Virus record (IMG/VR): IMGVR_UViG_3300021356_000160
Coordinates: 1 to 24,464 of that record
Reading direction: 5' to 3' (one strand)
Length of the DNA stretch: 24,464 bases
DNA from: a virus
The position numbers and the translations under genes are program-made. The notes beneath the pieces were generated by a model. That model was not told the origin of the DNA. It saw nothing but the letters and a program-made list of their open reading frames with translations, and searched no databases. Of the stretch, positions 1-23,032 are shown piece by piece; within the stretch, counting starts at the first letter, position 1; every line of letters begins with the position of its first letter.

Positions 1-24
1 TGGCGGCGGTGGTGGTGGAGGAGG
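1..24 (-). repeat. Polyproline codon run at the truncated end of the DUF4815 gene
   Basis: Eight consecutive proline codons (CCT, CCA and CCG) follow a Thr-rich stretch (TTTTVLTGTTFT). The run reaches the window edge, so its full length is unknown. A polyproline segment usually forms a stiff linker between domains, which suggests that another domain follows outside the window. Confidence 0.8.
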
Positions 25-5214: not shown

Positions 5215-6765
5215 TTAGAACTGCAGTATAATTTTTATATCTTCTTTTTGGTTGGAAGATCTCGTAATAGCTGGTCGGTTGTCAATATAAATTATATCTC
5301 CAGAATATTTTTTGACCTCTGGATTTGACAAACCATTTGTAAATGATTGTCCAAGGTAATATGTTCTATTATTTAGAGTGGTAGAGAGACCGCTAAATGT
5401 GGTTGAAATACTTAATCCAGCAGTTGTTCCAACTATACTAAAAGATCCATTCCCAGATACTGAAGACGAGAATCTTGTTAATTCGTAACCATATTGTGGG
5501 TTTGTTTGAGCAGTTCCAACAGTGTTAAATCCTGCAAGAGTTCTATCTTGCCAGTATTTTAAAACACCAGTAACTTGATCATAACTGATAACTCTACCAA
5601 TGGCAGTAACTCCTGTACCAACAGTTTGAGTGATAGTAGAATCTGCAGTGAAAGTTGCAGAACTGTATCCAGTTCCGACTAATCTCATCGCATAAACTGC
5701 ACTTGCTTTTGACAATGAAAGATTTGAAGTAGAATTGTATGCTTTAGGGTTTTTTACAATACCAATTCTAGAAACTTGGTTTCCAGTAATAAAATCTGGA
5801 TTTTCATCATCATTTTCAATTCTTGCATATAAGAGTGCATTTTTGGCACCCAATTCTCTGTAGATATCTTTCCCATGGCCACCTGGAGGTGACATTATGA
5901 CTTCAAGACTTGGTAGAGTTGTTCCTGTTGGAACATTTCCTGCAACTAAATCAACAGTACCGAAGGAATAATCTTTTCCTGGATTTGATACTGTAACACT
6001 GTCAACCTGTTGATCGTTATTAATAACAACAGTACACTCTGCACCAGACCCATCTCCTTTAATGGGAACTCTAGTATAAGTTCTGTTTGCAGTTCCTAAT
6101 CCAACACCTCTATTTTGAACAATGACCGTTTTAATGCTACCATCAACAGCATTGTCTCTCACTGCAGCATGATCATTGCTAGTTTCCCAGTTCAAAGGAA
6201 CTGGCATAAAATCGGTAGAATCAAATTTAATTAAATCAGATGGTTTTATAGTATAAAGATATTTCCAAATATACCCATCACCACTCGTTCCTGCTGCTCT
6301 CGGTTCCAAATCAGTAAATGTTGGTTCATCCAAGGAAGGCCTTCCATCTGGATTTTCTGGATTTGTTCCGTTGTCTAAACAAATGTAGACTCTGTAATCA
6401 CTATTAATCGCATAATAATTTGCAGAATATAATGAGGTTCCATTACCATTCCTTGGAATTTTTGCTATGCTGTAATCATGTCTGTAATAGTCATAAGTTG
6501 TGCCAGAGTTCCAAGATACTTTTTTGATGACAAGTTTAATGTCTTCTGAAGTTATCTTTTTCAAAGCGATCATGGTATCCCATGTATCGTTAGCTTGACT
6601 AAAGTTGTCAGTAGGGCTAGGGGGATCATCATCCCAGTCAGACTGAACATCTGTTGGGTTTGGTAATCCAACAAAAGCATAATATGAATTATCAGAAGTA
6701 GTCACGCCAGAAACAAAGTTTTTCGCGTTTAAAATTCTAATCTGATCAGTTATAATTGCAGCCAT
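5215..6765 (-). CDS. 8: Baseplate wedge subunit gp8-like
   Basis: This 516-aa protein follows the gp7-position gene, as gene 8 follows gene 7 in T4. Its N-terminus (ITDQIRILNAKNFVSGV at residues 5-21, then YYAFVGLPNP), the HDYSIAKIPRN segment near residue 96, and GTSGDGYIWKYLYTI at 159-173 match the cyanophage gp8 family as I know it. T4 gp8 (334 aa) is a dimeric wedge component linking gp10, gp7 and gp6. The extra length here lies in a C-terminal half rich in Gly/Ser/Thr and beta-type sequence, including one GKDY repeat of the kind that abounds in the preceding giant protein. The start is ATG 32 bases after the preceding stop. There is no strong Shine-Dalgarno site, but a late-promoter-like motif lies upstream. 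The gene ends with tandem TAA stops, six bases before the DUF4815 gene. Confidence 0.85.
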   Translation of the reverse strand: MAAIITDQIRILNAKNFVSGVTTSDNSYYAFVGLPNPTDVQSDWDDDPPSPTDNFSQANDTWDTMIALKKITSEDIKLVIKKVSWNSGTTYDYYRHDYSIAKIPRNGNGTSLYSANYYAINSDYRVYICLDNGTNPENPDGRPSLDEPTFTDLEPRAAGTSGDGYIWKYLYTIKPSDLIKFDSTDFMPVPLNWETSNDHAAVRDNAVDGSIKTVIVQNRGVGLGTANRTYTRVPIKGDGSGAECTVVINNDQQVDSVTVSNPGKDYSFGTVDLVAGNVPTGTTLPSLEVIMSPPGGHGKDIYRELGAKNALLYARIENDDENPDFITGNQVSRIGIVKNPKAYNSTSNLSLSKASAVYAMRLVGTGYSSATFTADSTITQTVGTGVTAIGRVISYDQVTGVLKYWQDRTLAGFNTVGTAQTNPQYGYELTRFSSSVSGNGSFSIVGTTAGLSISTTFSGLSTTLNNRTYYLGQSFTNGLSNPEVKKYSGDIIYIDNRPAITRSSNQKEDIKIILQF

Positions 6766-6797: not shown

Positions 6798-9700
6798 TCA
6801 GGTACTATAACTTTTGACCTTCAGTGATTTTTGTCTAACCACTACAGGGCCTGTTTCAATTCCAGTAATACCGTTGGTGGTATTTACTGTATATGCTTGA
6901 CTTTTATTTCTATCGGTCAATTGCAATTTACCCCAACTATATTCGCCATAGAAGTGACTGACTGCCAATCCAGTCAATCCATCTGTAGAACTAACACTCA
7001 CAACAACTTGGGTTACTGTAGTTTGACCAAAACCAATAGCATCGGTTGTTACACCAGTGGTAACATGAGCAGCTCTGTATACGCCATCCATAAAGGTTGT
7101 ACCAACGCCCACAACAGCGTTGTTTTCATCCAGAGAGGTTAGACCGCCACCAACATTTGAATTCCTAATGACAAACAAATCACCAGTACCAATTCCACTT
7201 GCAGTGATTGCAGATGGTTGAGTAATATCACTATTTCTCAAGAATGAATCGTATGGGATAACGAGATCAAGAACAAGTCCAGTAACTGCAACACCCGCTA
7301 TAGATGTTGTGCCGATACCGGTAATAATTCCAAAGTCTCCAGAATAAGAATCAATTGTATTTGTTTCAGTTACAAATGTTGGAGGCCCAATCAATACTCT
7401 AGGATGAGTTGTTTGTGCATAACCAGTGCCACTAGTATCAACAGAAATGGCAGTTACAGATCCTCCAGAGATGGTTGCAGTGGCAGTTGCTCCAGAAGTT
7501 GTTCCTAATCCAACAGGAGTTTGTATTGATACAGTTGGAACGCTTGTATAACCTTTACCGCCATCTGAAATGACTATGGAGGTGACCGTTGTACCCACTC
7601 CAACAACTGCTGTTGCAGCAGCTGCTACTTTCTGAGGATTATCTATGAAAAGAATATCCTTTTGGAAATCAGTATTAACTTTATTCTCATTCTTAGCGTT
7701 AAAGAATGGTCTTACATTATCAACACTAATAATTGTGGATCCAATTCCAACAGATTTAATTAAATATGTCGATGGGAAAATATTTGCATTATAAAGATCT
7801 CTCGCTTTACTAATTTGCTTACCAGCAACAAATCTATCCTCAGTCTGTCGGCACCATTTGACAGGCCTTAACATTCTAGTCTTATCACTAAGACCACCAC
7901 CAGAATATGGATTTGTGTCCACAGAACTTGAAGATGTTATCTCAGAGACGGTGCGCTCATCTTCTTGTAGGAACCTATCTTGATTTATATTCAGAGGAGT
8001 TTGTTTTAGTCTTCTATCATATCCAATCGTCAAATCATCACCAGTCTTCACTGTTTCGATGATATCTCTATCAATAACATCAGCACCACCAGTTCCTCTA
8101 TAGAAAATCAGTTTGAATGTATCACCTGCTTTAGGTGCCTCTTCAAAACTAAAGTTACTTCCACCAGTAAAGAAGTATGATTCATCGGGAACTTGAAGAA
8201 TATCATTGACAAAAAGTAATAATGTGTCCTGAACTTTTATAAGTGATCCGGGTGCGGCCTGAATGGAGAAAGAATTTCCATTCAAGGTGATTGGGAATGT
8301 CTTCGTTACTCCATCAAACAATGAAGATACATCATCAAGAACTTGAAGTTGTCCAATAGACCATGCAGTAAATAAATCAGAATCAATTTCTAAAATATCA
8401 ACTTTAAATTCTTCAAAGTTTGAAGATCCTGTTGTAGGTATTCCAGTTGCACCGCCAGAAGGAATAGTTAAAATATGTCCAACTCCATAGCCATATCCGG
8501 TGTTTGATATTGAGAAATCTATGACACTAGATCCTTGACCAACAACAACATCAATGGTGGCGTTTACTCCACCAGATCCAAGAGAATCTGAACTATATGA
8601 CAACGGAATATTTACATAACTATGTGGTTCATCAATAATTACCTTAAGTAATTGATTTACTTTACCACATCTTGCGTAATTGTGAGGTCTAGTAGAAATA
8701 CCACTGTCAACCTCAAACTGAGTGGTGCTCAGGACTCTAAGAACAGGAGTTCCGTCATAAGCAGGATCTTGACCACTAGCTGAGTTATTATTTGCTCTAG
8801 GTGCGATTATTACAGGTTGAATGGTTCCTCCCGTAATGAAGTTATCAAGAGTTAATCCTGCTCCAACATTAATACTAAACTGAGTTGCACTTGCAACACC
8901 TGCGACAGATACTCCACAGAAGGCATCATCAGTTGATCTTGGGAATGTGTGAGTAGGGGCACTTCCATCAGATTCTGCTGACATGCCAAGTTCATTTAAT
9001 AATACATCACTACTCTTTCCTGTAGTAGAAAGACCATGTGCAGCGGATGTGGTTACCGTCATAATACCGCTGACAGAATTATAAACTGCACTTTGAACAC
9101 CAACAGCAGGTGCATAATCGCAAGTAAATGCGATTCCAGAAAGAACTACCTCATTGCCAACACTTAATCCATGTGCAGTTAATGTTGTAATCGTAGTAAT
9201 ACCAGTAATAGAAGTGTATCCTACATTAGAAATATCTCTAGGAACATAGAATACTCTAGAATCTGTTACAGCAACTCCAGTGATGTGACCACCGGAGATT
9301 GCAGCAGTACCAATCGCAACAATGTCGGCACCGTTTATACTTTCCCTCTGAATTGAGACATTTACAGTTTGTATTCCAGATCTATAACCAGAACCAGTAT
9401 TTCCAATAGAAATAGATGCGATAGTTCCTGCAGCAGAAACAATAGCAGTTCCTCCAGCAGCTACAAGTGGTTGATAACCAAATCCTTCGGACGATCCTAC
9501 AGAAACAATAACGCCACCAACTGGGATATTTGCATTATTTGGATCATATCCAACAGAACTTGCAGTTCCTGTGAATCTTATACTGGAAATACCGCCAACT
9601 TCAGTTAAAGAATAATTATAGTTATTTCCAGGTCCTTGGAAGATGTTATTAATCAATACCACTGCGTTATTTGTGGCAACTCCACTAACATTAGTACCAT

Positions 9701-12700
9701 TGTTAACTGTTAGAGAGAACTCTTTTTCTTTTCCAGTAAATTGTTGACCAATATCATCATACAAATAATTCTGGGAATAGGCCTCTGATGAAGATCCTCT
9801 TGTTCCAGATCTGAGGAAGACTCTTCCATTAAACGAAGATGATGTAGTTATTCCAGTCCAATCTCTAGAGTCTGGTGGATTTGTCGGCAATTCAACGGGA
9901 TTCAGTCCACTGGGAGCTTCAGCAAAGTTTACATAGTTATCAACAATATTATACCCACCTCTGAGTTTAGTGACTAGAGATCCTGTATCATGACCCACGA
10001 TTGGAGTTCCCAACCATCCTCTTTGAACCCTAACAGCATTGGTACTTCCGATACCAACACCAAGAATTTTCATGATCTCTCCAGTGTCAGCCGCTCCAAC
10101 TCTAACATAATCTGCGCCAAAGAATGATGTTATTCCTGAGAATCTAAGAAGATCTGTATTCCTAATTGCACCTTCTGATATGAATGTTGTAACCGAAGTT
10201 CCTGCAACGGGTGATTGAATAACATTATCAATTGAGAATATAACCTTTTGGTTTTGATTTTTAGAAGTAAAACTATGCGATGTTCCAACACCAACACTAG
10301 TCAAATCAAGAGGAACTGCAATTGCTTTAAGAGCGTCTTCTGCAGATCTTGCTAATTTGATTTTACTATCACTTTGCTTAATAACAAATACGGATGTTGG
10401 TAATTGAGTTGTAGATCCAACTCCAACGAAAGTAGTTCTAGCAATACCGATAGCGTGAGTTCCAATTCCAGTGGAAGGTGCATATACAACTTCCTCACCA
10501 GTTACAAAGAAGTGATCGGGTATGGTGATAGTGTTACTTGATAAGTCAACAACATTTGTTGAAGATCCATCAACAACTCTTCTAAACACATCAAGAGACT
10601 TGTGTTGGATATTAAATTGCCTCTTAACGCTATTTTGAGTTCCTGTATATACTGCATCTGAGTTCTGAATTGCTGCATTACCAAAATCGATTTCAGATTC
10701 TCCACCAACAACTCTTCCACCAGGACTTGGAGATTCATTGGTTTCAGGTCTCATGGCATTCATGTAAGTTTTTACTTCAATATCTGCACCAGCATCTGGT
10801 GTAAAAGTTACTTCGGTATAATTTGATCCATCACCTGCTCTTCTTGCGCTGATTGTGCCAAGTCCTACAAAAGCACCAGATCCAATCTGAGTATTGCCAT
10901 ACTCGACAATTTGGACATTTTCGGGATCTTCGTCATTATAATCATCAATAATCAGAACTTCAGACACCTCATATCTGCCATTTGTTGTATCAGATACCTG
11001 AACAAAACAATACGCTGCATCATATGCATCACTATAACTTGCAATTCCTACAGCTACTGGCATTGTTGTTGATCCAATAGAAGTAGATTTGGCCTCAATA
11101 GAACTATGTGTAAGTTCATATGTACCAATTCCAGTATATCCCTCAGAGGACAATCCGACAGTTATTGTATTAACACTTGCAGTGGTTAGTCCTGCAATAG
11201 GAGTGTAAGTCACTCTTATATCACTTCCACTAATAGAGGCACCAAATGTTCCTATATTTGATCCAGTTGAATATGCATCTGTTGAATGTATTGTTAGTTG
11301 ACCATATTCCATCAATTGAACATCTGTTCCATCATGAACCAAAGTCAATTCGTCATATTCGACAGAACCATCGCTAGCTTCAACATTGACAAGTATTTTT
11401 GCTGATCTAGATCCAGAAGTGGTTGTTCCAATACCTGCCATAGTTACAATTGTTGTCTCCGCACCGCCAGCCATTTGAACAACTGATGATGCAATACTAA
11501 CCAATCCACCAGGGAAATCTGTTGCTGTTGACTCTCCAATAACAGTGCTGCCAACAGAAATATATTCTTGTGTAGTGGTAACACCTAAAGTATTAGTATC
11601 AATGTTATATGAGAACAATCTTACATTATAATTGTTAAGTTCAAATTTATTTGGGAAGAATTGTAAAACAGATTCTGCACCTTCAATTACTGAATCAAAA
11701 GATCCAAGATCAAGAACTGTATCAAGTGCTCCGTATTGGTTGATCATTGCAAATCCACGCCCAGTGTCATAGAGGGCATTGACAAGCATAATCTGCCTTT
11801 CGCCAGTAAATAATCTATCTTGAATATATGCTATGAATTTTTGAGCTCTGTTGTTACCCAATCTTCCCCTAAAAACTTCTTCAAATTTAGTGGTTCTAGC
11901 ATTATTATTAAATTCGTCACTAAAATCATCTACAGAAAGAACTCTATTTCCAACTGATTCTGCATAGTCCTGAAGAATTCTTGTGCTAAATGAAATTTCA
12001 TCAGAATAATCTCTAAGACTTCCTCTTAGGAAATTTTCAGATACTAAATCAAAATTATTAACACAATTTAAGTCAGCTACACTTTGTAGATTGAATATTA
12101 AATCAACACTTTGATCTGTAACTGGCCTCAAAGTGGTTTGAGATGTTCTGGGGAGATTAGACTCAATATCGAGACTTGCAAATTTTCTAAATCCAGCAGC
12201 ATGATTTAATTGGGATACAACATCTTCCCATTCCTCTAACGGAACTTGTGACTTAATAGAATATGAGAAATTTTGATAATATTCATTATCATGTATTCTT
12301 TGAGACTCATTATTTAAAAATCCCTTATCATATTCCCAACCATTATTTACGAGAGAGAAATAATCTACATCATAAGTAGTTTCAAAAGAAATTTTTTCTT
12401 TAATTAAACCCTTTTTTCCGGTTTGATCTGATTTAATAATATCTCCAACTACAAAATCTTCTGAACTTTCAACGGTCAAATATTTGTTTTCTGCGTCCCA
12501 CTCAAATACATCCGCAGATTGATTTCCATTGTTGACACTTTCTCCCGCTTCAAAAATATTTGCTCTTAATGTAGAGTCAAATTGTGGGAAATCCCTCTCT
12601 CTAACTAAAATTGCTGATGAGTTTTTAGCATCAAATTTACCAGTTGTTTGTCCCGATGAAACCTGCCCAGCCATGCTATAAGTAACAACACCAACAGAAC

Positions 12701-15700
12701 CTAAGTTCTGGAATACCTCAGTAATTTCAAATCTAACATAATCATAATTTTCAGAATTAAATCCTAATGCAGTTGATCCAATACCAACACTGACATTTTC
12801 TACAAGAACTTTATCACCAACTTCAAGTGGGAAAGTATCATTTGTGCTAAACGCATCTTTAAGATTTACTGTTACTTCTTCAGTAACATCATCATATGTA
12901 AAGTTCTTTGCTCTAATGCCATTGGGGTTTCCAACAGGAATGATTGTTGGATCAACATTTGACAGATTATTGGTATTTTGTAGAATCTCTACTTCATTTT
13001 TATCTAAAGGATACCTTAGTTTTACATCAATAATTTCTTTTTTAGTTTTTCCATCAAGAACAACTAAACTTGGAGCAGTGTTGTATCCTCTACCCAAAGA
13101 AGTAATTCCAATAGATTCAAATCCAGTTAATGGTTCAATTCTAAATGTTTGTGGAAGTTTGGCTGTAGGTCTAAGTGTGAAATCTGATGAATAATCAAAT
13201 CCAATATTTGTTAATGAAATTGACTCGACTTTACCTATCGTAGTGCTAGATGGCTCTAATAACGCTCCACTACCAAGAGAACTTGAAATGGTTGAAATGC
13301 CAGGAATTATTTCATACCCATTACCCTTATTTGTTACAGAAACCTCAGTTATAGAACCATATGCAGTAGGTGAATTTGTTGTATAAGATAATTTTGATAC
13401 ATTATTTGCGTATGATGATAATTCAGGAACTTCTCTAAGATTATATGTGAAGTCATTATCACCAGAAACTGTTATTTCATGAGAACCAGAATACTTACTG
13501 TTTTGAATTGTAAGTTTATTTGATGGGGAATCATCATCTTCTCGAATTTCTTTATTGACGGGTAAATTGCTAAGATCTTTAATTGGAGATAATCTATAAT
13601 AAAGTATTTCTGGCGTATTCTCTTTTATTCTAAGAGTAACTCTGGCATCAGTTGTTACACCAACATCCCCTGTTTTTGTTACATCAAAAGATCCGTCGTC
13701 ATTAAGAGATCCAGTACCAAAATATTCATTATTAAAGTTTTCATCTGTATAGAATTTTAAGTCAAACGCTGGGAAGGATGTTGCATTTTGGGTATAAGAT
13801 AAAGTACTATCAGATACATTAAAGTTTACGACTGAATTTTTATATAATTTTATTTGTGGATTTACTGGATAAATTTCTCCACTAGACGCCGTACTAATGG
13901 CAACAAAATTGGGAAGACTTTTTGTTACTTGGAATTTATCATTTGTTAATTGGATCGTATCCTTATCAACAACATAAACAAAATACTCTTTGTCAGTTTC
14001 TAATCCTCCAGATGGAGAATCTGCTATATGAATTATTTTTTGACCAGTTTCCAGTCCATGATCACTGAGACTTATTGAACTTCTTGATCCAGTTGCACTT
14101 GTGGCGGTTGTTATTCCACCAGAAGTGAAAGCCAGACCAGTAATTATGGATTTTCTATTTGCCTTATTATAGAAAACATTAATCGATGTTGAATTCTCTG
14201 GGCTAACATTGATATTGACAGTATCTTCATTTAATAATCCATGAGTTCCTGCAGTAGATACAGTTACTAGATTTTTTTCAACTTTTCCTTTAATGACTGG
14301 ATATGTTGTTTTAAGACTATGGTATGTGCCAGTTCCTATTCCAAGGAAGTATACAAGACCTTGATGTAAGGTAGTATCTGCAACTCCAACAAATGAACCT
14401 GTGGATCCAATACCAATTTTTACTGTAGAAAGTCCAATAAAATCAACACCAAGATCTGCTACAAATAGTGACGAGTGTTGATTGAGGAGAGTGGTATCAG
14501 GATCTGTAACACCATTGCCAACTATGGAATGAGTTGCTATTCCAATAGAATCTCCTCCATTTGTTTGATAAGTTACAACATCTCCTGTTCTTAATCTATG
14601 GTTAGGTAAATAAATTGCTCTAGTTTCAACAAAAATTTGAGTTTTTCCAGACCCTGGATTTGAAATTGATAAAGTTGTTCCAATTCCAACTGATATACTA
14701 CCACTTTGAGCTAAACCCACTGCTTCAGATGGGTTAAAATATAACTCTTTATTAATTTTACTTGAAATACTGGTATTAATACCAGTATTGAATACAATTC
14801 TTCTTGGTAGAGATCTTAAACTTGTTGATTCGGTATGAGAAGTGCCAACTGTAGAATTTTCTTGTCTTAAAACTCTAATTCTTGATGAAAATCTATCAAC
14901 ATTTAAAATTCTAACATTTTCGTTGCCTATTTTAAAAATATCATTTTCAGACATTCCTAAATCACCTGCAACTGAGAAATAGGTTACAATTCCTGTAGCA
15001 CCAATATTATCAACTGCTTTGGTAAGAGATAATCCTGTTGTATTCACTCCAACAGAAACAAAGTCTCTCAGTTCTGATGTCGTAGTTGTTAATCCGGATA
15101 TGGTAACAATATCACGATTAATTAATCCGTGCGAAGCAGTGTTTATCCCCAATACTTGGTTTGAACCTAGTTTATAAAATTCAAAATTGTTTAAAGTAAT
15201 TGTATCAACGCTTATTGTACTGATTCCTTGACCAGAAACTTGATTAACTACTCCACTTGGGACGAATGAATTATTTTCTTGCTTTTTAAAGACAATCCTA
15301 TCCCCAACTTGATAATTTTGTCCACCTGTTAAGATTCCTATTGAATCTACAGAACCTTTTTTAACAAACTTAAGTTTTGATTCTTGTTCAACTTCTCTAT
15401 AAGACTGCTTTATGTAATCATATCCACTATAATCATTTTCTAAAGAATATGGATGCGTATTACGAGCCCAGGAAGTTTCGTTCAGATCAATGCTGTCTTG
15501 TCTAGATGCTGGATTAAAGTTAAAAGAGTTTGGAATCGAATAAAAACTATCTCCAACTAAGTATGGGAATTTTGGTTGTTTGTAATTTTTAAAGATACCA
15601 TCTCCAGACGCAACAATATCAATGGTTGAAAAATATGCATATACTCCATTTGGGTACTCTGGAGTAACGCAAAATCTTCCATTATGCTTATCAAGAAAAG

Positions 15701-18700
15701 ACTCATCAGTGCTCTCTAACCACAGAAAATCTTCAATAAAAAATTCTGGAGGAAATTCACTTGTTGGTGGTCTAGTCGTCTTTAAATTTAAAGTATATCC
15801 AGACTTCATCTGAACTACTGTTCCACCAGATTTTGTAGAATATCCATATGGACCATAAATTGGATTTCCATCATAGGCCCATCCAATTATGGGAGAGTGT
15901 GCATCTGAAGTGCCTTCAGACCCATTTATTAAAGTTAAATCTTTTTTGCCAAATAAAGTTTTTCCATCAGATGATGACCCATATAAAACAGACCTCAATG
16001 TTCTGGGTGCATATACATAACTACACTGCAATCCAGATCCAGATACGGGTGTTGATATAAAAACATCATCCGCAGTTATTGATGGTAGATTTTTTCTAAA
16101 TTTATTAACTGTCCATTGCTGAATATTTGGTTTAAAGGTGGCATTTTTTCCTGATGATACTACATCTATAGATGTAGTGGAAGATCCATATCCAACTCCA
16201 GAATTTGCAATGTTTATTGAAACAATATTGCCCAAAGAATTTAATTCTGGGATAAGTACAGCCCCAGTACCAATTCCAAGAACTTTAATTTCTGGTGCAG
16301 AGTTGTAATCTGTTCCTGCAGCTCCAATTACAACATCAGTAATTCTTCCATTGGTTATAATAGGAGTTATCTCTCCACCTCTTCCAGAATTTAAATCTAA
16401 AAGAGGAGGCCTTTCATAATTCAATATATTGGTAACTCCATATCCAACACCATTATTTTCTAAGAAAATATCTACAATTTCTCCTCTAACAATTGGTTGA
16501 ATTTGAGCTTCAAAAGTCTTTCCTTCAATTGTACCAATTCCTAGATTTCCTGTGATTGATACCAATATATCTTGATAATTAAAAGTATGAGTTCCGGACC
16601 CAATATTACTAAAGTTTTGATATTGCTTAGTTTTATAATAGAAATCCGACTGAGTTGTTCCAACACCAACTGCAGATAATTTGAATTGATCTTCATTTAC
16701 AACTGTTACATAATATTCTGAAGAATTTGTCAGTCCACCTATCGCATTTCCGGTAGTAGTATATTTTAAAATTTCTCCACTATCATACCCATGGGATTTA
16801 ATGTTGATTAAATTTGAAGATGTGCTTACTCCAGCAGAGTCGCAGTTAGTTTTTCTATTTTTATACCCACTACCACTATTTGTTACGACAATAGAACTTA
16901 CTACTGATTTTCCTTCCAAAGAATTAAGTGAATGAATTCCTTCACCAAAATCAGTAAATCCAACTGTTCCTAATCCAACAGAAGATTCGCTTAAATTATT
17001 ATGTAAAGTTATTGTGTAGTTATTAACAACATTTACATAATAAGTAGCATCTGTATTAAGTCCAACAAGTGCTTTTTTCCCAAAAGTTTTATAAACTACC
17101 TTTTCGCCTGTTCTAAATTTATGTGTTGTAGAAAACCCAATAGTAGATGTATCAACACCAATTCTGGCAGAACCTATACCACTAGCATCAAAGGTGACAT
17201 TGTGGGGCACTGTGACCATCTTAGCTTCAGCTGTAGCACCTTCACCAGATCCTCCTGAGATTTTAACTGTTGGAGTATTAAGATAATCAAACCCTGAGTC
17301 AATAACTCTAATTTCTTTTAAATTTCCTTCAACAGCACAGAATCCAGTAGCTCCAGAACCGACTGAATCAGTTATTCCTAAAACAGGAGGATTTATCACA
17401 TCATAATCTTCTCCCCCATTGGCAACTAAGACAGAAGATACTTCTCCATAAAAACACTTATCTGTTGATTTATAGTTTAGAACTTCAACTCCATTAATTA
17501 AAATGCCACTGTATCCTGGGTAGGTTTTATATTCTTTTCTGTCTTTAGATGGAGATTTTACTTCTCTGAATATTTTTTGTGGTTCAATTTTTCTTTCACT
17601 AAATTCTGCTTTTTCAAAATCATTACTCGTGATGGTTACGGTGTCACTAGAACCCTCAACTTCTACAAAAATGCCATTGTGAATATTTGCTCTACTTCTA
17701 GCTAACTTAATAGTTGTATCACTAACTCGTTTGACAAAATAAATTCCTTCATCAAATAAAGAACTAATAACAAATTCTTGATCAATCCTTACACCATTAG
17801 CTAAAGTTCTCTCAACAGAACCTTTTTGTGGAGTATATTTAATTCTATCTCCAGTGTATAAATTGTGATCTACTCCCGATACAATTTGAATATCAGTGCT
17901 TCCAACAACAAATGTTCCTGAAATAGTAAATTTTTGAATAGTTGGATCTAATTTTACGTCAGAATCTGCAGGTAATGAAGATGATGCTACAAGGATTTTA
18001 GATGACTTTGGATCATCGACAATTATATCATGTGGAAATGGTGTGTGCTTTGCTCCAACCATTCTAACACCTGTTTCTGGATGTTCATGATATGGGCCAT
18101 AGTATGGTTTTCCATTAACAAATCCAACATCTGGTTTTACATAAACATTTTGAATATTTGCTGTTAATGAATTTAAGTTGGTGTGTATATTTGAATCAAC
18201 TTTTATTATTTTTCTAGTTACTTTTGATATAATAGAAGCATCAGATATTCCAGTTCCTCTAAAAATGCATGTATTATTACTAAAAACATCAGTGACTACA
18301 AATTCATCTGGCAATATTTGATTATTACGATCTGTTAGAGTCAATAAATCCCCTATTCTAAGGATGTGATTATCTTTTGTTACCAATTTATAGGTATTGT
18401 TTGAAGCATCAACTAGAATAAGACTTTCGACCTCATAGTATTGAGCAGTATTGAATATCCAGTGATTTTCTTTTATAGACTCTCCCGGTTTTCCTAAAGT
18501 TTTTATTTTTACTTTAGAGTCTTTTTTCTGATAATATGTATTTGCAGGAATGCGAATACCGTTAAGAACAGATCTAATTTTTACTCTAACACCATTATCG
18601 GTGGGACTTCCAACATATGCAAAGGTATTTTGATCAATGGATGTGCCATCTTTTACATTTCCAGTAATTCCAGTAACATCAATATCTAAAAACTGGTTTA

Positions 18701-19784
18701 CAGTCTTTGAATAGTATGTACAAACTCCAATAGTTCCATTATCATACTGAAAACTTAATGTGCCCTCATTGGGGAATCCGATAGTGGTATCAACATCTAT
18801 AAACGATTGTCCAACTCCCACAGAACCAATTACATAGGTTTTAGGATGTGGTGAAAAGTTTCCATATAACAATTCTGTTGTTCCATCATTTTGAGTTAAA
18901 GATCCGTCAATAGCTATCTTGTAATACTCTGCTGTGGAAATACCAGAGTATATTTTTTCTACACTCGATACTGGAGCATATGCTTTTCTAATATTTTCAA
19001 ATCCATCTTGAAAGAGAGTTCTATTAAGTAAATTGTCAGGATCTCCCTCTACAACTTCGACGACTAAATTTCTATCTATTTTATAGTTTGCGTCTGAAGG
19101 TGTGATTACTGAATCAATAGGACGAATTATTTCTGCTTTTTTTCCGTACAGAGCTTTAAAAAGAATTTCAAAAGACTTATCAGTTCCTCTCGAAGAGTAA
19201 AAACTTTTAGAATTCTTAATAAAAGATCTTTGATTTAATTGCGAAAATAAGTCTTTATCGCTTAAACCATTTAAAAGTTGTTTTTTTGTTTTTCTTAAAA
19301 ATTCATCTAAAAATAAAACATTGAGATTTTCTACTTTAGCGTAAACCTCATGCTCAGCCGCATTACTATTATTAAAAACTAATTCTTCAGCATCACTACC
19401 ATTACCATAAGAAGTAATTCCAGCAAATCCTCTAATACATGCAACGAAATTTACATCTGTTTTATATCGATAATATATAACTTCATCATCAATTTTGATT
19501 AAACCATCAGAATCCGGAAATCCTTCAGTGCTTTCGACATATATATCGCCATCTCTGAACCGATCTAGATCATATGTCAGAACAGTTTCTTTGACATAAC
19601 CATCAGTTGTAGATCTTTTTAAATATTCATCAATATTTTGAATTATATCAAGAGGGCCACCTTGATATTCTTGAGATCTATAGTATCTTGATAAAAATTG
19701 CCCAATCAAAGGAAATTCTTCCCTCACATAAGAGGGTAATTGGTTCTCAACGATGTGACTAATTTTTACTCTGTTTTCTTTCAT
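6798..19784 (-). CDS. Giant 4328-aa baseplate-cluster structural protein in the gp7 position, with YHYH motif
   Basis: This single open frame of 12,987 bases lies between gp6 and gp8, where T4 has gene 7 (baseplate wedge initiator, 1032 aa). The N-terminal 230 residues (HIVENQLPSYVREEFPLIGQ, YYRSQEYQGGPLD, FYSSRGTDKSFEILFKALYG) belong to a family typical of T4-like cyanophages. Next come a GKPYYGPYHEHP motif (residues 558-569), a YHYH-type motif (1296-1315), a conserved-looking region with FSYSIKSQVPLEEW (about 2500-2540), a segment with NNRAQKFIAYIQDRLFTGER (about 2640-2735), a duplicated module (2794-3011) and a C-terminus with FYGEYSWGKL. Between these are many beta-rich repeats: GxGYxxxP units, HGLxTGxxVxY units and GIGT/GVGTT motifs. 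No signal peptide or membrane segment is seen. It starts nine bases after the gp6 stop with an A-rich leader and no Shine-Dalgarno site. A role in the wedge or a peripheral baseplate/tail fibre structure is inferred from position and family; equivalence to gp7 is not proven. Confidence 0.88.
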   Translation of the reverse strand: MKENRVKISHIVENQLPSYVREEFPLIGQFLSRYYRSQEYQGGPLDIIQNIDEYLKRSTTDGYVKETVLTYDLDRFRDGDIYVESTEGFPDSDGLIKIDDEVIYYRYKTDVNFVACIRGFAGITSYGNGSDAEELVFNNSNAAEHEVYAKVENLNVLFLDEFLRKTKKQLLNGLSDKDLFSQLNQRSFIKNSKSFYSSRGTDKSFEILFKALYGKKAEIIRPIDSVITPSDANYKIDRNLVVEVVEGDPDNLLNRTLFQDGFENIRKAYAPVSSVEKIYSGISTAEYYKIAIDGSLTQNDGTTELLYGNFSPHPKTYVIGSVGVGQSFIDVDTTIGFPNEGTLSFQYDNGTIGVCTYYSKTVNQFLDIDVTGITGNVKDGTSIDQNTFAYVGSPTDNGVRVKIRSVLNGIRIPANTYYQKKDSKVKIKTLGKPGESIKENHWIFNTAQYYEVESLILVDASNNTYKLVTKDNHILRIGDLLTLTDRNNQILPDEFVVTDVFSNNTCIFRGTGISDASIISKVTRKIIKVDSNIHTNLNSLTANIQNVYVKPDVGFVNGKPYYGPYHEHPETGVRMVGAKHTPFPHDIIVDDPKSSKILVASSSLPADSDVKLDPTIQKFTISGTFVVGSTDIQIVSGVDHNLYTGDRIKYTPQKGSVERTLANGVRIDQEFVISSLFDEGIYFVKRVSDTTIKLARSRANIHNGIFVEVEGSSDTVTITSNDFEKAEFSERKIEPQKIFREVKSPSKDRKEYKTYPGYSGILINGVEVLNYKSTDKCFYGEVSSVLVANGGEDYDVINPPVLGITDSVGSGATGFCAVEGNLKEIRVIDSGFDYLNTPTVKISGGSGEGATAEAKMVTVPHNVTFDASGIGSARIGVDTSTIGFSTTHKFRTGEKVVYKTFGKKALVGLNTDATYYVNVVNNYTITLHNNLSESSVGLGTVGFTDFGEGIHSLNSLEGKSVVSSIVVTNSGSGYKNRKTNCDSAGVSTSSNLINIKSHGYDSGEILKYTTTGNAIGGLTNSSEYYVTVVNEDQFKLSAVGVGTTQSDFYYKTKQYQNFSNIGSGTHTFNYQDILVSITGNLGIGTIEGKTFEAQIQPIVRGEIVDIFLENNGVGYGVTNILNYERPPLLDLNSGRGGEITPIITNGRITDVVIGAAGTDYNSAPEIKVLGIGTGAVLIPELNSLGNIVSINIANSGVGYGSSTTSIDVVSSGKNATFKPNIQQWTVNKFRKNLPSITADDVFISTPVSGSGLQCSYVYAPRTLRSVLYGSSSDGKTLFGKKDLTLINGSEGTSDAHSPIIGWAYDGNPIYGPYGYSTKSGGTVVQMKSGYTLNLKTTRPPTSEFPPEFFIEDFLWLESTDESFLDKHNGRFCVTPEYPNGVYAYFSTIDIVASGDGIFKNYKQPKFPYLVGDSFYSIPNSFNFNPASRQDSIDLNETSWARNTHPYSLENDYSGYDYIKQSYREVEQESKLKFVKKGSVDSIGILTGGQNYQVGDRIVFKKQENNSFVPSGVVNQVSGQGISTISVDTITLNNFEFYKLGSNQVLGINTASHGLINRDIVTISGLTTTTSELRDFVSVGVNTTGLSLTKAVDNIGATGIVTYFSVAGDLGMSENDIFKIGNENVRILNVDRFSSRIRVLRQENSTVGTSHTESTSLRSLPRRIVFNTGINTSISSKINKELYFNPSEAVGLAQSGSISVGIGTTLSISNPGSGKTQIFVETRAIYLPNHRLRTGDVVTYQTNGGDSIGIATHSIVGNGVTDPDTTLLNQHSSLFVADLGVDFIGLSTVKIGIGSTGSFVGVADTTLHQGLVYFLGIGTGTYHSLKTTYPVIKGKVEKNLVTVSTAGTHGLLNEDTVNINVSPENSTSINVFYNKANRKSIITGLAFTSGGITTATSATGSRSSISLSDHGLETGQKIIHIADSPSGGLETDKEYFVYVVDKDTIQLTNDKFQVTKSLPNFVAISTASSGEIYPVNPQIKLYKNSVVNFNVSDSTLSYTQNATSFPAFDLKFYTDENFNNEYFGTGSLNDDGSFDVTKTGDVGVTTDARVTLRIKENTPEILYYRLSPIKDLSNLPVNKEIREDDDSPSNKLTIQNSKYSGSHEITVSGDNDFTYNLREVPELSSYANNVSKLSYTTNSPTAYGSITEVSVTNKGNGYEIIPGISTISSSLGSGALLEPSSTTIGKVESISLTNIGFDYSSDFTLRPTAKLPQTFRIEPLTGFESIGITSLGRGYNTAPSLVVLDGKTKKEIIDVKLRYPLDKNEVEILQNTNNLSNVDPTIIPVGNPNGIRAKNFTYDDVTEEVTVNLKDAFSTNDTFPLEVGDKVLVENVSVGIGSTALGFNSENYDYVRFEITEVFQNLGSVGVVTYSMAGQVSSGQTTGKFDAKNSSAILVRERDFPQFDSTLRANIFEAGESVNNGNQSADVFEWDAENKYLTVESSEDFVVGDIIKSDQTGKKGLIKEKISFETTYDVDYFSLVNNGWEYDKGFLNNESQRIHDNEYYQNFSYSIKSQVPLEEWEDVVSQLNHAAGFRKFASLDIESNLPRTSQTTLRPVTDQSVDLIFNLQSVADLNCVNNFDLVSENFLRGSLRDYSDEISFSTRILQDYAESVGNRVLSVDDFSDEFNNNARTTKFEEVFRGRLGNNRAQKFIAYIQDRLFTGERQIMLVNALYDTGRGFAMINQYGALDTVLDLGSFDSVIEGAESVLQFFPNKFELNNYNVRLFSYNIDTNTLGVTTTQEYISVGSTVIGESTATDFPGGLVSIASSVVQMAGGAETTIVTMAGIGTTTSGSRSAKILVNVEASDGSVEYDELTLVHDGTDVQLMEYGQLTIHSTDAYSTGSNIGTFGASISGSDIRVTYTPIAGLTTASVNTITVGLSSEGYTGIGTYELTHSSIEAKSTSIGSTTMPVAVGIASYSDAYDAAYCFVQVSDTTNGRYEVSEVLIIDDYNDEDPENVQIVEYGNTQIGSGAFVGLGTISARRAGDGSNYTEVTFTPDAGADIEVKTYMNAMRPETNESPSPGGRVVGGESEIDFGNAAIQNSDAVYTGTQNSVKRQFNIQHKSLDVFRRVVDGSSTNVVDLSSNTITIPDHFFVTGEEVVYAPSTGIGTHAIGIARTTFVGVGSTTQLPTSVFVIKQSDSKIKLARSAEDALKAIAVPLDLTSVGVGTSHSFTSKNQNQKVIFSIDNVIQSPVAGTSVTTFISEGAIRNTDLLRFSGITSFFGADYVRVGAADTGEIMKILGVGIGSTNAVRVQRGWLGTPIVGHDTGSLVTKLRGGYNIVDNYVNFAEAPSGLNPVELPTNPPDSRDWTGITTSSSFNGRVFLRSGTRGSSSEAYSQNYLYDDIGQQFTGKEKEFSLTVNNGTNVSGVATNNAVVLINNIFQGPGNNYNYSLTEVGGISSIRFTGTASSVGYDPNNANIPVGGVIVSVGSSEGFGYQPLVAAGGTAIVSAAGTIASISIGNTGSGYRSGIQTVNVSIQRESINGADIVAIGTAAISGGHITGVAVTDSRVFYVPRDISNVGYTSITGITTITTLTAHGLSVGNEVVLSGIAFTCDYAPAVGVQSAVYNSVSGIMTVTTSAAHGLSTTGKSSDVLLNELGMSAESDGSAPTHTFPRSTDDAFCGVSVAGVASATQFSINVGAGLTLDNFITGGTIQPVIIAPRANNNSASGQDPAYDGTPVLRVLSTTQFEVDSGISTRPHNYARCGKVNQLLKVIIDEPHSYVNIPLSYSSDSLGSGGVNATIDVVVGQGSSVIDFSISNTGYGYGVGHILTIPSGGATGIPTTGSSNFEEFKVDILEIDSDLFTAWSIGQLQVLDDVSSLFDGVTKTFPITLNGNSFSIQAAPGSLIKVQDTLLLFVNDILQVPDESYFFTGGSNFSFEEAPKAGDTFKLIFYRGTGGADVIDRDIIETVKTGDDLTIGYDRRLKQTPLNINQDRFLQEDERTVSEITSSSSVDTNPYSGGGLSDKTRMLRPVKWCRQTEDRFVAGKQISKARDLYNANIFPSTYLIKSVGIGSTIISVDNVRPFFNAKNENKVNTDFQKDILFIDNPQKVAAAATAVVGVGTTVTSIVISDGGKGYTSVPTVSIQTPVGLGTTSGATATATISGGSVTAISVDTSGTGYAQTTHPRVLIGPPTFVTETNTIDSYSGDFGIITGIGTTSIAGVAVTGLVLDLVIPYDSFLRNSDITQPSAITASGIGTGDLFVIRNSNVGGGLTSLDENNAVVGVGTTFMDGVYRAAHVTTGVTTDAIGFGQTTVTQVVVSVSSTDGLTGLAVSHFYGEYSWGKLQLTDRNKSQAYTVNTTNGITGIETGPVVVRQKSLKVKSYST
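10752..11018 (-). repeat. Second copy of a duplicated ~87-residue module in the giant protein
   Basis: Residues 2923-3011 of the giant protein. It shares an ordered set of positions with the module at 2794-2878: VQIVEYG, then GLGTISA, then EVTFTPDAG, ending in a V-rich strand. It differs enough at the residue level that the duplication is old. It is probably a beta-sandwich-like domain by its alternating pattern. I do not recognise a named family with certainty. Confidence 0.6.
11151..11405 (-). repeat. First copy of a duplicated ~87-residue module in the giant protein
   Basis: Residues 2794-2878 of the giant protein. The order of motifs is SAKILVNVE, then VQLMEYG, then NIGTFGA, then RVTYTPIAG, then a closing strand. 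It is separated from the second copy by 44 residues that contain a GIGT motif and a Ser/Thr-rich linker. Confidence 0.6.
15840..15899 (-). other. YHYH-domain motif within the giant protein
   Basis: Residues 1296-1315 read HSPIIGWAYDGNPIYGPYGY. The pattern of a GWAYDGNPIYGP core preceded by His is the hallmark of the YHYH domain, which occurs in many cyanophage structural proteins and in some bacterial secreted proteins. Its biochemical function is unknown to me. Here it lies in the middle third of the protein, between two blocks of GxGY repeats. Confidence 0.75.
18039..18116 (-). other. His/Tyr-rich GPYHEHP motif within the giant protein
   Basis: Residues 557-582 begin NGKPYYGPYHEHPETG and continue to VGAKHT. 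It resembles a second YHYH-like element: both have a [KN]P-[IY]-YGPY core. The extra His residues (566, 568, 581) could bind a metal, but this is inference. Similar GPxHxHP segments occur in other cyanophage structural proteins as I recall them. Confidence 0.55.
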
Positions 19785-19793
19785 TTGTTTTTG

Positions 19794-21728
19794 TTATCTT
19801 ACGATATTTCCTGCACTATAGCTGGAACTGACTGTGTAGTTGGAACCCGATGGACTTGACCCAGAACTGATTTGATCAACAATCATTTCAACAGAAGTTT
19901 TATCTAATTGAAGATAAAGATCTTGCAAACCAATAACATCATTTGATAGTGGGCATGTCGATATTTCTAAAATTTGTTGACTATCTTTGGTTTTTCCTGA
20001 AATAACATTGATTGGATTTAATGTTATTCGACCCTTTTCATAATTTACTAAACCAACACCACTTCTTCTTATGATAGGAGTAGTAGATTCTGGAGTTGCT
20101 AAAGAAATTAAATTAATAACTCCAGTTTTTTTATCAGCATTAGGGACATCAGTAAGGTAAACATCCTCATTAATATCTATCACCCTAAATGCAGAGGATT
20201 TTATGTTATATCCATTCATAGATTTAACATAGAATTCATTTCCAAAATCAATCGCATATTCTGCAAATTGATTCAATGCCAATCTCAAATCTCTTCTAAT
20301 GTTGATGGTCGTTATGTTTGAGGTTACTGCAGAGTGACTTTGGTCAATTAATCTTAAAAATTGACTATATTTGAATCTTGCACCATATCTATTTAATTCA
20401 CTTGAATCGGCGTACTTTGTAATATTATCTTGTATTTTTGATGCTAATGCATTTGCATTAGGTGCTAAACTTGGATTGTAATATACTTTACTTTCTGCCT
20501 CTACAAAAAGATATTTTAGATCTAAAATTTCTGGAATAATACCTGCAACAGAATATTTTCTAAGATCTCTCTTTATATTTTCTTTAATTGTATTTGGTAT
20601 AAAATCGCCATTTCGTGGTTTTATGCTAATAAAAACTTTTCCATACTGTGGAGGCACCAAATCCTCTCCACCATATACCGAAATTGACTCAGATTCAGGA
20701 TAAATTTTATTCGGAATCAATATTTCAAAATCATTTGCAGTTAATGCTCTATTTTGTGTTGCATAAATTTGAGGAGCATATTTTCTGACAGACTCAACAC
20801 TTTCAATCTCTTCACCACCACTAGAGGGTAGATCTGCAGTAATTAAAGATATTCCACTTGTTACTGGAAAAGTCGTGCTTCCCTTAGTATACTCCAATCT
20901 TCCACTGAAAAGAAAATCAACTATACCGTCTCCCGCTGGCCCAGTTGTTCTGATATAAGATACTTCGATAACACTACCATTTTGCAATTCTTGACCAAAA
21001 ATACCGTCTCCAAAAATTAATTCATACCTTTCATCTTCTACTTCTTGTATGAAATAAATTTTTGAGTTGCCATTAATAGCAGAGCCCATTTTTTCGTCAA
21101 ATAAGTCATCTTGACGAGTATATTTCAGACTAATAGTTGAATTTTCTGTTGGTTTTACTTTTACGACTAATGTGTCTAAGTCTATTCCAGAGTTTGTCAG
21201 TAAAAATCTTTGATTTGAATTTGATGTGTCAACCTCAAATTGCTGATTTACAACAGTTCCTTCGTAAATCTCAATTTGATCAAATAAAGCTACTTCATCA
21301 ATAACACCTACAGTAATATCTTCAGTTATACCAAAAACATAAGACTGATTGTTAAAGTTTCCCCCAGATGCAGCAATTGGTCCTTTCTTTAAAGTTACTG
21401 TGGATGGTGGGTTTGCAACATTCGACAAATCTGCAAAGAAATTAATCGTTGTTCTTGATGATTTCTTAGATCTGGGTACATATCCAATGTTTCTTGCAAG
21501 AGATACAACATTTTCTCTTAGTGTTGCACTGTCAATGAATACCTCATTTGCAACCATATTGGCATTGTATGAGGTAATATAGGTGTTGTATGCTAATACA
21601 TCAAGAATTGTTGACAGATTAGATCCCTCAAAATCATAATCAGTGAAATTTGAGTATGTTTTTAAATAATTTTTGAGAGTATCCTTAATCTGGTCAAAGT
21701 CCAGACTAGAAAAATTTAAAAGGGACAT
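19794..21728 (-). CDS. 6: Baseplate wedge subunit gp6
   Basis: At 644 aa it is close to T4 gp6 (660 aa). The N-terminus (LLNFSSLDFDQIKDTLKNYL, then FEGSNLSTILDVLAYNTYI and ENVVSLARNIGYVPRS by residue 88) is the well-conserved start of phage gp6/baseplate J-like proteins. The central part around residues 310-345 (VRKYAPQIYATQNRALTANDFEIL) is the baseplate_J-type core with its NRALTANDFE motif. gp6 forms the iris-like ring that ties wedges together around the tail tube and binds gp25 and gp7. Its ATG directly abuts the gp25 TAA (TAAATG) with no gap and no Shine-Dalgarno site, so translation is probably coupled to gp25. The C-terminal 20 residues are Ser/Gly-rich. Confidence 0.95.
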   Translation of the reverse strand: MSLLNFSSLDFDQIKDTLKNYLKTYSNFTDYDFEGSNLSTILDVLAYNTYITSYNANMVANEVFIDSATLRENVVSLARNIGYVPRSKKSSRTTINFFADLSNVANPPSTVTLKKGPIAASGGNFNNQSYVFGITEDITVGVIDEVALFDQIEIYEGTVVNQQFEVDTSNSNQRFLLTNSGIDLDTLVVKVKPTENSTISLKYTRQDDLFDEKMGSAINGNSKIYFIQEVEDERYELIFGDGIFGQELQNGSVIEVSYIRTTGPAGDGIVDFLFSGRLEYTKGSTTFPVTSGISLITADLPSSGGEEIESVESVRKYAPQIYATQNRALTANDFEILIPNKIYPESESISVYGGEDLVPPQYGKVFISIKPRNGDFIPNTIKENIKRDLRKYSVAGIIPEILDLKYLFVEAESKVYYNPSLAPNANALASKIQDNITKYADSSELNRYGARFKYSQFLRLIDQSHSAVTSNITTINIRRDLRLALNQFAEYAIDFGNEFYVKSMNGYNIKSSAFRVIDINEDVYLTDVPNADKKTGVINLISLATPESTTPIIRRSGVGLVNYEKGRITLNPINVISGKTKDSQQILEISTCPLSNDVIGLQDLYLQLDKTSVEMIVDQISSGSSPSGSNYTVSSSYSAGNIVR

Positions 21729-22161: not shown

Positions 22162-22362
22162 CTAAAATTCAGTTAATACTGTGGGTTCAGTGCCGTATTC
22201 CCAGTCATCATAGTCATCATCATTACGAATCTTCTCATGAATCTCTTTTTGCACCTTAAAATTGTGTTTTTTGGGTGTTAGATCATCATTTGCGATTTCA
22301 CGAAGCATTTTTTGATGCTGATCATTAGCTAAATTGTCTAAAAAGTCGTTATTCGGAGTCAT
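22162..22362 (-). CDS. Small hypothetical protein, 66 aa
   Basis: I place the start at ATG 22362 (MTPNNDFLDNL) because it has an AGAGG site four bases upstream and overlaps the preceding 227-aa gene by only 14 bases, as expected in a phage operon. A longer reading of the same frame from 22506 would overlap that gene by over 150 bases and adds a basic, unconvincing N-terminus. The protein is charged: a mainly helical-looking N-terminal half (DQHQKMLREIANDD), a Lys-rich middle and an acidic, Tyr/Trp-bearing tail (NDDDYDDWEYG). No known domain is recognised. Its position just before gp25 suggests a virion or assembly role, but that is only inference. Confidence 0.7.
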   Translation of the reverse strand: MTPNNDFLDNLANDQHQKMLREIANDDLTPKKHNFKVQKEIHEKIRNDDDYDDWEYGTEPTVLTEF

Positions 22363-23032
22363 TTTCCTCTTTTTTGAATGAATTTTCGCGTTCTTTTGCG
22401 GTTTTCCAGAAATATTCGTCTTCACGACCCATTCCGAGTCGCTCATAACCGTTTTCAACACTATAATATTCGGTCGAAACCTTAAAATCAGGCATTTTGG
22501 GGTCAACAGGAGTCAAACTGTTATCATAGATACGCATTCTATTGTTTGGATAGAGTGCATATTGTCCATTATCTAGTTCAATCAGGTTTGATGACTTGTG
22601 TTCAGCAGGATTTTCACTTGTTGCATAGTCAATGGCATCAGGATCCTGGTGATAATTGTCTAGAGTACAAATGTATGTACCTTTTTGAATACCAAAATCT
22701 CTTGTATACAGTTCATAGTCCATGGAGCCAATAAATTGCTTCTGAACAGCAACAACACCATAGTCCATACAGTTCCAGAACTGCAGGTTAGGAAGGTCCA
22801 TATCGGGGTCTGGAAGCGCCGGAGACGAGAGAAACGCGCTTATAGGTAGTTTGTCATACATTGCCGCATATTCCGGCAAATAGGTCTCAAAATAAAAAGC
22901 ACGCCCAGGAATCGACTTTGCCGATACCCAGACGCCCTTTACAAATTCACCGTGACCTGATTGATGGTCAGTGAGATATTCTTTACGAACCCAAACCTCA
23001 ACCGAGGGGAGGTTACAAATAAGTGCAGCCAT
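22349..23032 (-). CDS. Conserved cyanophage-type hypothetical protein, 227 aa
   Basis: The protein (MAALICNLPSVEVWVRKEYL at the N-terminus) resembles an unknown family I recall from T4-like cyanophages near the baseplate genes. It is aromatic-rich, with PGRAFYFETYLPEYAAMYDKLP at about 42-63, FWNCMDYGVVAVQKQFIGS at about 85-103 and a charged C-terminal tail (WKTAKERENSFKKEE). The middle contains LDNGQYALYPNNRMRIYDNS, a compact beta-like stretch. There is no signal peptide, no membrane segment and no catalytic motif that I recognise. The ATG at 23032 is preceded by a weak late-promoter motif and no good Shine-Dalgarno site. The stop lies inside the next gene (14-base overlap), indicating translational coupling. 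Confidence 0.85.
   Translation of the reverse strand: MAALICNLPSVEVWVRKEYLTDHQSGHGEFVKGVWVSAKSIPGRAFYFETYLPEYAAMYDKLPISAFLSSPALPDPDMDLPNLQFWNCMDYGVVAVQKQFIGSMDYELYTRDFGIQKGTYICTLDNYHQDPDAIDYATSENPAEHKSSNLIELDNGQYALYPNNRMRIYDNSLTPVDPKMPDFKVSTEYYSVENGYERLGMGREDEYFWKTAKERENSFKKEENDSE

Follow-up and report, generated by a model that had tools for sequence, protein, structure and literature searches.

The window, the whole stretch of DNA analysed here, is a virus record of 24,464 bases and contains, in local order, gp25, gp6, a very long gene in the position of gp7, and gp8, with gp25 lying upstream. The long gene is a reading frame of 4328 codons on the minus strand (6798-19784) that has no interruption, and it is placed between gp6 and gp8 as is gp7 of T4. 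The predicted mass of its product is 465.7 kDa, compared to 119.2 kDa for T4 gp7. The genes and the parts of the protein are listed in Table 1. In addition, positions 1-5208 encode a DUF4815 protein in the VrlC position, which runs off the contig end and whose readable frame terminates in eight consecutive prolines, possibly marking an assembly break. A further frame of 227 aa (22349-23032) equals SSM2_093 of S-SM2 (L003:12615-13298, 227 aa, annotated as purM) in position and length, the two features compared; since the window frame has no Pfam match, the purM name looks doubtful.

Table 1. Genes and protein features of the window, with residue numbers of the gp7-position protein
Feature	Residues	Coordinates	Strand	Basis or remark
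gp7-position gene, 4328 aa	1-4328	6798..19784	-	Single unbroken ORF; match to PHROG 2885 'baseplate wedge subunit' over residues 594-4324
gp6 baseplate wedge protein, 644 aa, neighbour		19794..21728	-	Pfam Gp6-like_1st
gp8 baseplate wedge protein, 516 aa, neighbour		5215..6765	-	Pfam Phage-Gp8, E 6e-15
N-core, first helical part	1-58	19611..19784	-	Corresponds to 1-53 of Desulfovibrio phage gp7, whose alignment with T4 begins at 645
Small beta module in N-core	62-127	19404..19601	-	Profile self-comparison; missing in Desulfovibrio phage and phiM12 gp7
N-core, second part	154-293	18906..19325	-	186-293 corresponds to T4 gp7 725-814
Large insertion (~2147 residues), repeated beta-rich modules	294-2440	12465..18905	-	Tiled profiles, module map
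YHYH-type domain in insertion	~1180-1430	15495..16247	-	PF14240; Pfam match 15615-15911
C-core	2441-2540	12165..12464	-	Corresponds to T4 gp7 817-889
Three-copy module after core	2637-3000	10785..11876	-	Missing in S-CAM9 and L025/L034
C-terminal unit	3052-4328	6801..10631	-	Separate gene of 1042-1044 aa in L028 and L031-L033
Variable slot	3508-3715	8640..9263	-	0-733 residues in relatives

End-to-end homologues of the protein are present in independent contigs from other metagenomes, with 92% identity in L006 and L007 and about 80% in L009. The dN/dS of the entire protein against its relatives is 0.12-0.17, indicating purifying selection along its length, and the insertion shows no relaxation. 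A chance frame or an assembly artefact is dismissed because of these full-length copies and the low dN/dS, and the long single frame read in a preliminary description of this DNA is real.

The same description took the length of the protein to be unusual, while allowing that a length and order shared among relatives would be typical of the family. The comparison across cyanophages gave the latter result: the domain order is shared, and giant size is characteristic of cyanophage gp7. In every cyanophage examined, a giant gene of 1937-7351 aa is located between gp6 and gp8 or gp9, and in a few of them it is present as two or three separate genes. Its length is 4067 aa in Bellamy, 4156 in S-SM2, 5195 in P-SSM2, 4307 in P-TIM68, 4454 in P-HM2, 3884 in S-CAM9, 4225 in ACG-2014f, 3895 in S-SRM01, 4314 in S-CAM7, 3274 in Syn1, 6376 in Syn33, 7351 in P-TIM40, 7312 in P-SSM4, 6619 in S-SZBM1, and 1937 in S-CREM2. 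In S-SSM7 (L036:2362-21456), a gp9-like gene separates two gp7 genes encoding 3007 and 3001 aa, and YPR-type repeats form a long array in the second half, at residues ~307-1962. In Syn33 (L040) and P-SSM4 (L047), the gene after the giant gp7 is annotated as gp9 and not gp8. Fusion of gp8 into the 6376-aa Syn33 protein was considered and rejected, as matches to the gp8 profile in it are confined to short repeats; for P-SSM4, no match to the gp8 profile was reported.

Scanning IMG/VR with a profile gave at least 587 related stretches, and the giant gene occurs in hundreds of ocean contigs. Many of the isolate genes already bear the names gp7, 'baseplate wedge initiator' or 'baseplate wedge subunit', and PHROG 2885, the giant cyanophage gp7 family, matches the window protein with 3360.6 bits. 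The window protein is a new addition to a known, previously annotated and well-populated family of ocean phages. It shares with the giant gp7 proteins of Bellamy, S-SM2, P-TIM68, and P-SSM2 the gene position, ~28-45% identity, and the components N-core, insertion with a YHYH-type region, C-core, and C-terminal unit, whereas the exact length (as in P-SSM4 and P-TIM40) and the occupancy of the slot differ.

The relation to T4 gp7 was analysed with an 18-row family alignment divided into 29 overlapping tiles, each compared with five T4-type gp7 proteins. Matches at E<0.01 were obtained in only three of the tiles (1-250, 151-400, and 2401-2650), while reversed-tile controls gave zero matches to the T4-type gp7 alignment at this threshold. 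Window residues 186-293 align with T4 gp7 725-814 (hhalign E 4e-10, 96.7%), and in the tiled scan residues 2441-2533 align with T4 817-889 (hhalign E 0.0019, 14.5% probability). A wider alignment gave E 1.3e-5 and 81% probability for the C-core; the N half reached E 1.8e-10. The match of the C-core to T4 alone is modest at the level of profiles. An hmmsearch with residues 1-560 and 44 relatives against 177,635 PDB sequences placed T4 gp7 726-758 at the top (E 6.9e-6). Weak matches of N-terminus profiles with short helices of toxins (E 0.07 or higher) were discarded as chance, and the phage tail protein domain TIGR02242, with E 1e-5 for phiM12 gp7 and 0.049 for the window, was not used.

The two segments are also connected through a compact relative, the 586-aa gp7 encoded by Desulfovibrio phage 7757. 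The alignment of its residues 8-279 with T4 645-888 has E 7e-7; the N-terminal part of this protein matches the window N-core (E 7.7e-9), and residues 186-298 match the C-core family of the window (E 2e-14). Both half-cores are present in this protein, whereas its core is unbroken and the large insertion is missing. T4 gp7 (1032 aa; PDB 5hx2 and 5iv5) likewise shares with the window protein the core at 645-897 and the position between gp6 and gp8. In contrast, the T4 core is contiguous, its residues 1-640 are extra, and it is devoid of the 2147-residue insertion and the C-terminal unit. T4 residues 1-640 had no counterpart in the window protein in the 29-tile scan, and since they are missing from the gp7 of phiM12 and of the Desulfovibrio phage too, these domains are not a feature of the wider family. 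Because the matches ending at window residue 293 and starting at 2441 fall on adjacent T4 positions, and in order, the profiles support the T4-type gp7 assignment with a core that is intact but opened at T4 ~814/817. The preliminary description of a gp7-position protein expanded by insertions is therefore right in its architecture, namely two T4-homologous segments with an insertion and an extension, and wrong in regarding the length as exceptional. Its conserved segments are real, with the N-terminus and ~2440-2540 being the two halves of the gp7 core and the C-terminus being kept in relatives; so are its repeat-rich spans, which comprise at least five module families with 2-7 copies each in a profile self-comparison.

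The insertion (residues 294-2440) had no T4 gp7 match in the tiled profiles, and its size forms a series among the relatives. The same two motifs are 119 residues apart in T4 and 148 in the Desulfovibrio phage; L028 has 2058 residues between them, the window 2300, and P-SSM4 2851. Measured by alignment, the gap is several hundred residues in HTVC008M and phiM12, and about 1,600-1,700 in S-CREM2, whose gp7 stops just past the C-core. The gp7 of the Sinorhizobium phage phiM12 (1007 aa) and I899_gp055 of the Pelagibacter phage HTVC008M (1016 aa) have both half-cores with an insertion between them as in the window; in contrast, these inserts are several hundred residues only, and there is no window-like C-terminal unit. 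The N-core also has smaller insertions, namely residues 62-127 in the window and ~500 residues in Syn33 and S-SZBM1, the latter at the 106/109 junction of the window.

Copies of the modules recur along the chain. The beta module is present at 62-127, 311-377, 1601-1666, and 3202-3265. The H-x-L-TGD module is found at 613-704, 857-949, 975-1038, 1705-1800, 1869-1969, and 3054-3150, and the GxGY module at 768-841, 1121-1206, 2114-2205, 2219-2281, 3437-3513, 3713-3787, and 4049-4127. The three-copy module occupies 2637-2737, 2780-2888, and 2912-3000, and a further pair lies at 3337-3405 and 3812-3881. The gp8 of the window (5215-6765) also has a GxGY-type stretch, whose profile positions ~203-294 match many spots in the gp7 of Syn33 and P-HM2, so modules are common to different wedge proteins.

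Fission points in the relatives coincide with module boundaries. Window residues 3052-4287 correspond to a gene of its own in L028 and L031-L033, which overlaps by one base with an upstream gene of 2757-2760 aa; in L030 this gene is cut off by the contig end, and S-CREM2 is without the C-terminal unit. In L010 and L016, another fission is located after about residue 410. The short N-terminal gp7 of these loci (L010, 3600-3860; L016, 3610-3874) has a Ser/Gly-rich tail finishing in GYGY, and a tail of the same kind finishes the gp6 of L028 (3200-3272).

Within the C-terminal unit, one site is highly variable. Among relatives that are 76-93% identical, indels of at least 8 aa occur at 3507-3715 only. 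The slot is 'empty' (13-15 aa) in about 40 loci, and the lengths of filled slots cluster at 104, 207-217, 402-417, 522-523, 627-635, and 731-733 aa. Its dN/dS is 0.27-0.30 against L006 and L009, with faster evolution in two of three comparisons. Many filled slots contain YPR-motif repeats, the profile of which also matches arrays in the gp7 of P-SSM2, P-SSM4, S-SSM7, and P-HM2, and a query of the phage collection with the slot module gave six records only. Exchange of the slot contents is suggested by two relatives: L006 shares 98% identity with the window over the C-terminal segment and 80% over the slot, and the slot of L007 is 99% identical to that of the window.

Models of the terminal regions were also obtained. 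Residues 1-560 gave a mean pLDDT of 67.8, with helices at 8-58 and a helical core of low confidence. Among the PDB hits listed by Foldseek for this low-confidence model, T4 gp7 did not appear and only beta-barrel fragments of unrelated proteins were present, while in a viral library the model retrieved other cyanophage gp7 proteins and compact 'baseplate wedge subunit' models of ~500-650 aa. The model of residues 3129-4328 is beta-rich with an unstructured slot (pLDDT 64.4), and a Foldseek search of the PDB with it gave nothing at E<0.001.

Published mass spectrometry gives family-level support to the expectation that the protein is part of the virion, through two homologues. ORF122 of S-CREM2 was found in virions with 91 unique peptides and 27.2% coverage (PMC10665884). 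S-SZBM1_208, of 6619 aa, was found with 71 peptides, 13.5% coverage, and an emPAI of 0.41 (PMC9146016). It contains the N-core, the C-core, and the C-terminal segment, and its core is split as in the window.

Taken together, the window protein is probably the gp7 of a T4-like marine phage of the Kyanoviridae type, with a core opened by modules, an extended C-terminus, and probable host-contact arms. Residues 1-58, 154-293, and 2441-2540 would fold together into the conserved gp7 core, which by analogy with T4 would pair with gp6 and gp25 in each wedge. One permissive site of the core, between T4 814 and 817, would have received a chain of beta-rich modules of ~2147 residues including the YHYH-type domain, and a second chain would have been fused to the C-terminus. 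Both chains probably project outward as large peripheral arms of each wedge. T4 has six wedges with one gp7 in each, and at this number the window protein would total ~2.8 MDa, compared to 0.7 MDa in T4. The arms most likely help to reach or bind the host surface, and the variable slot would alter their length or contacts. Such a role is suggested by the modular, variable slot and by the lack of long tail fibres reported for S-SZBM1 (PMC9146016). Mutations in baseplate and tail proteins of cyanophages are described in two experimental-evolution studies; no gp7 homologue is named in the passages concerned, and these studies are not used as evidence here.

A serious, though unlikely, alternative is that the inserted modules have no role in host contact and are near-neutral structural bulk or stabilisers of the baseplate rim. 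The range of 1937-7351 aa among cyanophages implies that no particular length is needed, and neither a recognised receptor-binding domain nor a significant fold match was found. On the other hand, the dN/dS of ~0.12-0.17 overall without relaxation in the insertion, and the retention of the YHYH region in all aligned cyanophage-type homologues (16 of 16 proteins or fragments, S-CREM2 included), argue against neutral bulk.

The YHYH region itself could make the protein a tail-borne enzyme, in which an active metal-dependent hydrolase opens the cell envelope. The region matches PF14240 (E 4.9e-22 and E 4.1e-25). However, the family motif GxYxYF, which we take to be the position of the canonical metal-binding histidines, reads GVYAYF in the window and has no histidine; one histidine (HSPI) is conserved in the alignment of cyanophage-type gp7 proteins. 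Even though metal-dependent hydrolase activity is predicted for YHYH domains that are joined to tail or baseplate proteins (PMC7824862), an active enzyme is improbable here.

It is still less probable that the gene encodes an unrelated giant virion protein or adhesin at the gp7 position. T4 Gp7 has been described as missing from pelagimyophages and cyanomyophages and apparently substituted by VrlC (PMC7029224), and another study placed gp7 in the non-cyanophage core and termed it highly divergent (PMC3037559). The proposal that gp7 was lost agrees with the empty result of a single-sequence PDB search with the window protein, and with the fact that most of this protein has no T4 counterpart. 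In contrast, two of its segments match adjacent positions of the T4 gp7 core and are bridged by compact gp7 proteins, a DUF4815 protein occupies the VrlC position after gp8 and coexists with the giant gp7, and I899_gp055 of HTVC008M (L213:33435-36485), between gp6 and gp8, bears both half-cores (N-core E 2e-17, C-core E 1.1e-14). These matches indicate that gp7 is present in cyanophages and pelagimyophages with an opened core, contrary to PMC7029224, and an opened core with a lengthened tail explains why some authors thought it missing. I899_gp055 is labelled 'head closure Hc2', as are PHROG 460 and 3465, which also match gp7 proteins; this label may thus be spreading wrongly. Two 'baseplate wedge initiator' genes tested in HTVC008M carry no gp7 core. 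Finally, an assembly fusion of at least two genes, or cleavage of the product into separately acting proteins, would fit the separate genes with one-base stop/start overlaps in relatives and is very improbable, given that unbroken frames of full length occur repeatedly in independent contigs and in isolates, and that the 6619-aa homologue was identified in virions; even so, the product may be cleaved.

An earlier description of the split gp7 core was not found in the open-licence papers searched. New here are the division of the core, the series of insertions, the points of fission, the variable slot, and the correction of the reported absence of gp7. Cyanophages and SAR11 phages are very abundant, and their counterparts of the T4 baseplate parts have been unsettled. 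The presence of gp7 in an opened form corrects the published statement that it is missing, and the labels 'head closure Hc2' and 'baseplate wedge initiator' are flagged as unreliable in the pelagiphage. Moreover, one insertion site, modular arms, and a variable slot provide a concrete hypothesis for the host-contact surfaces of these phages. As a tentative extension, the site at T4 ~814/817 might be a growth point for host-contact machinery across T4-like phages, and the cyanophage gp7 might bear adsorption arms that may replace the long tail fibres.
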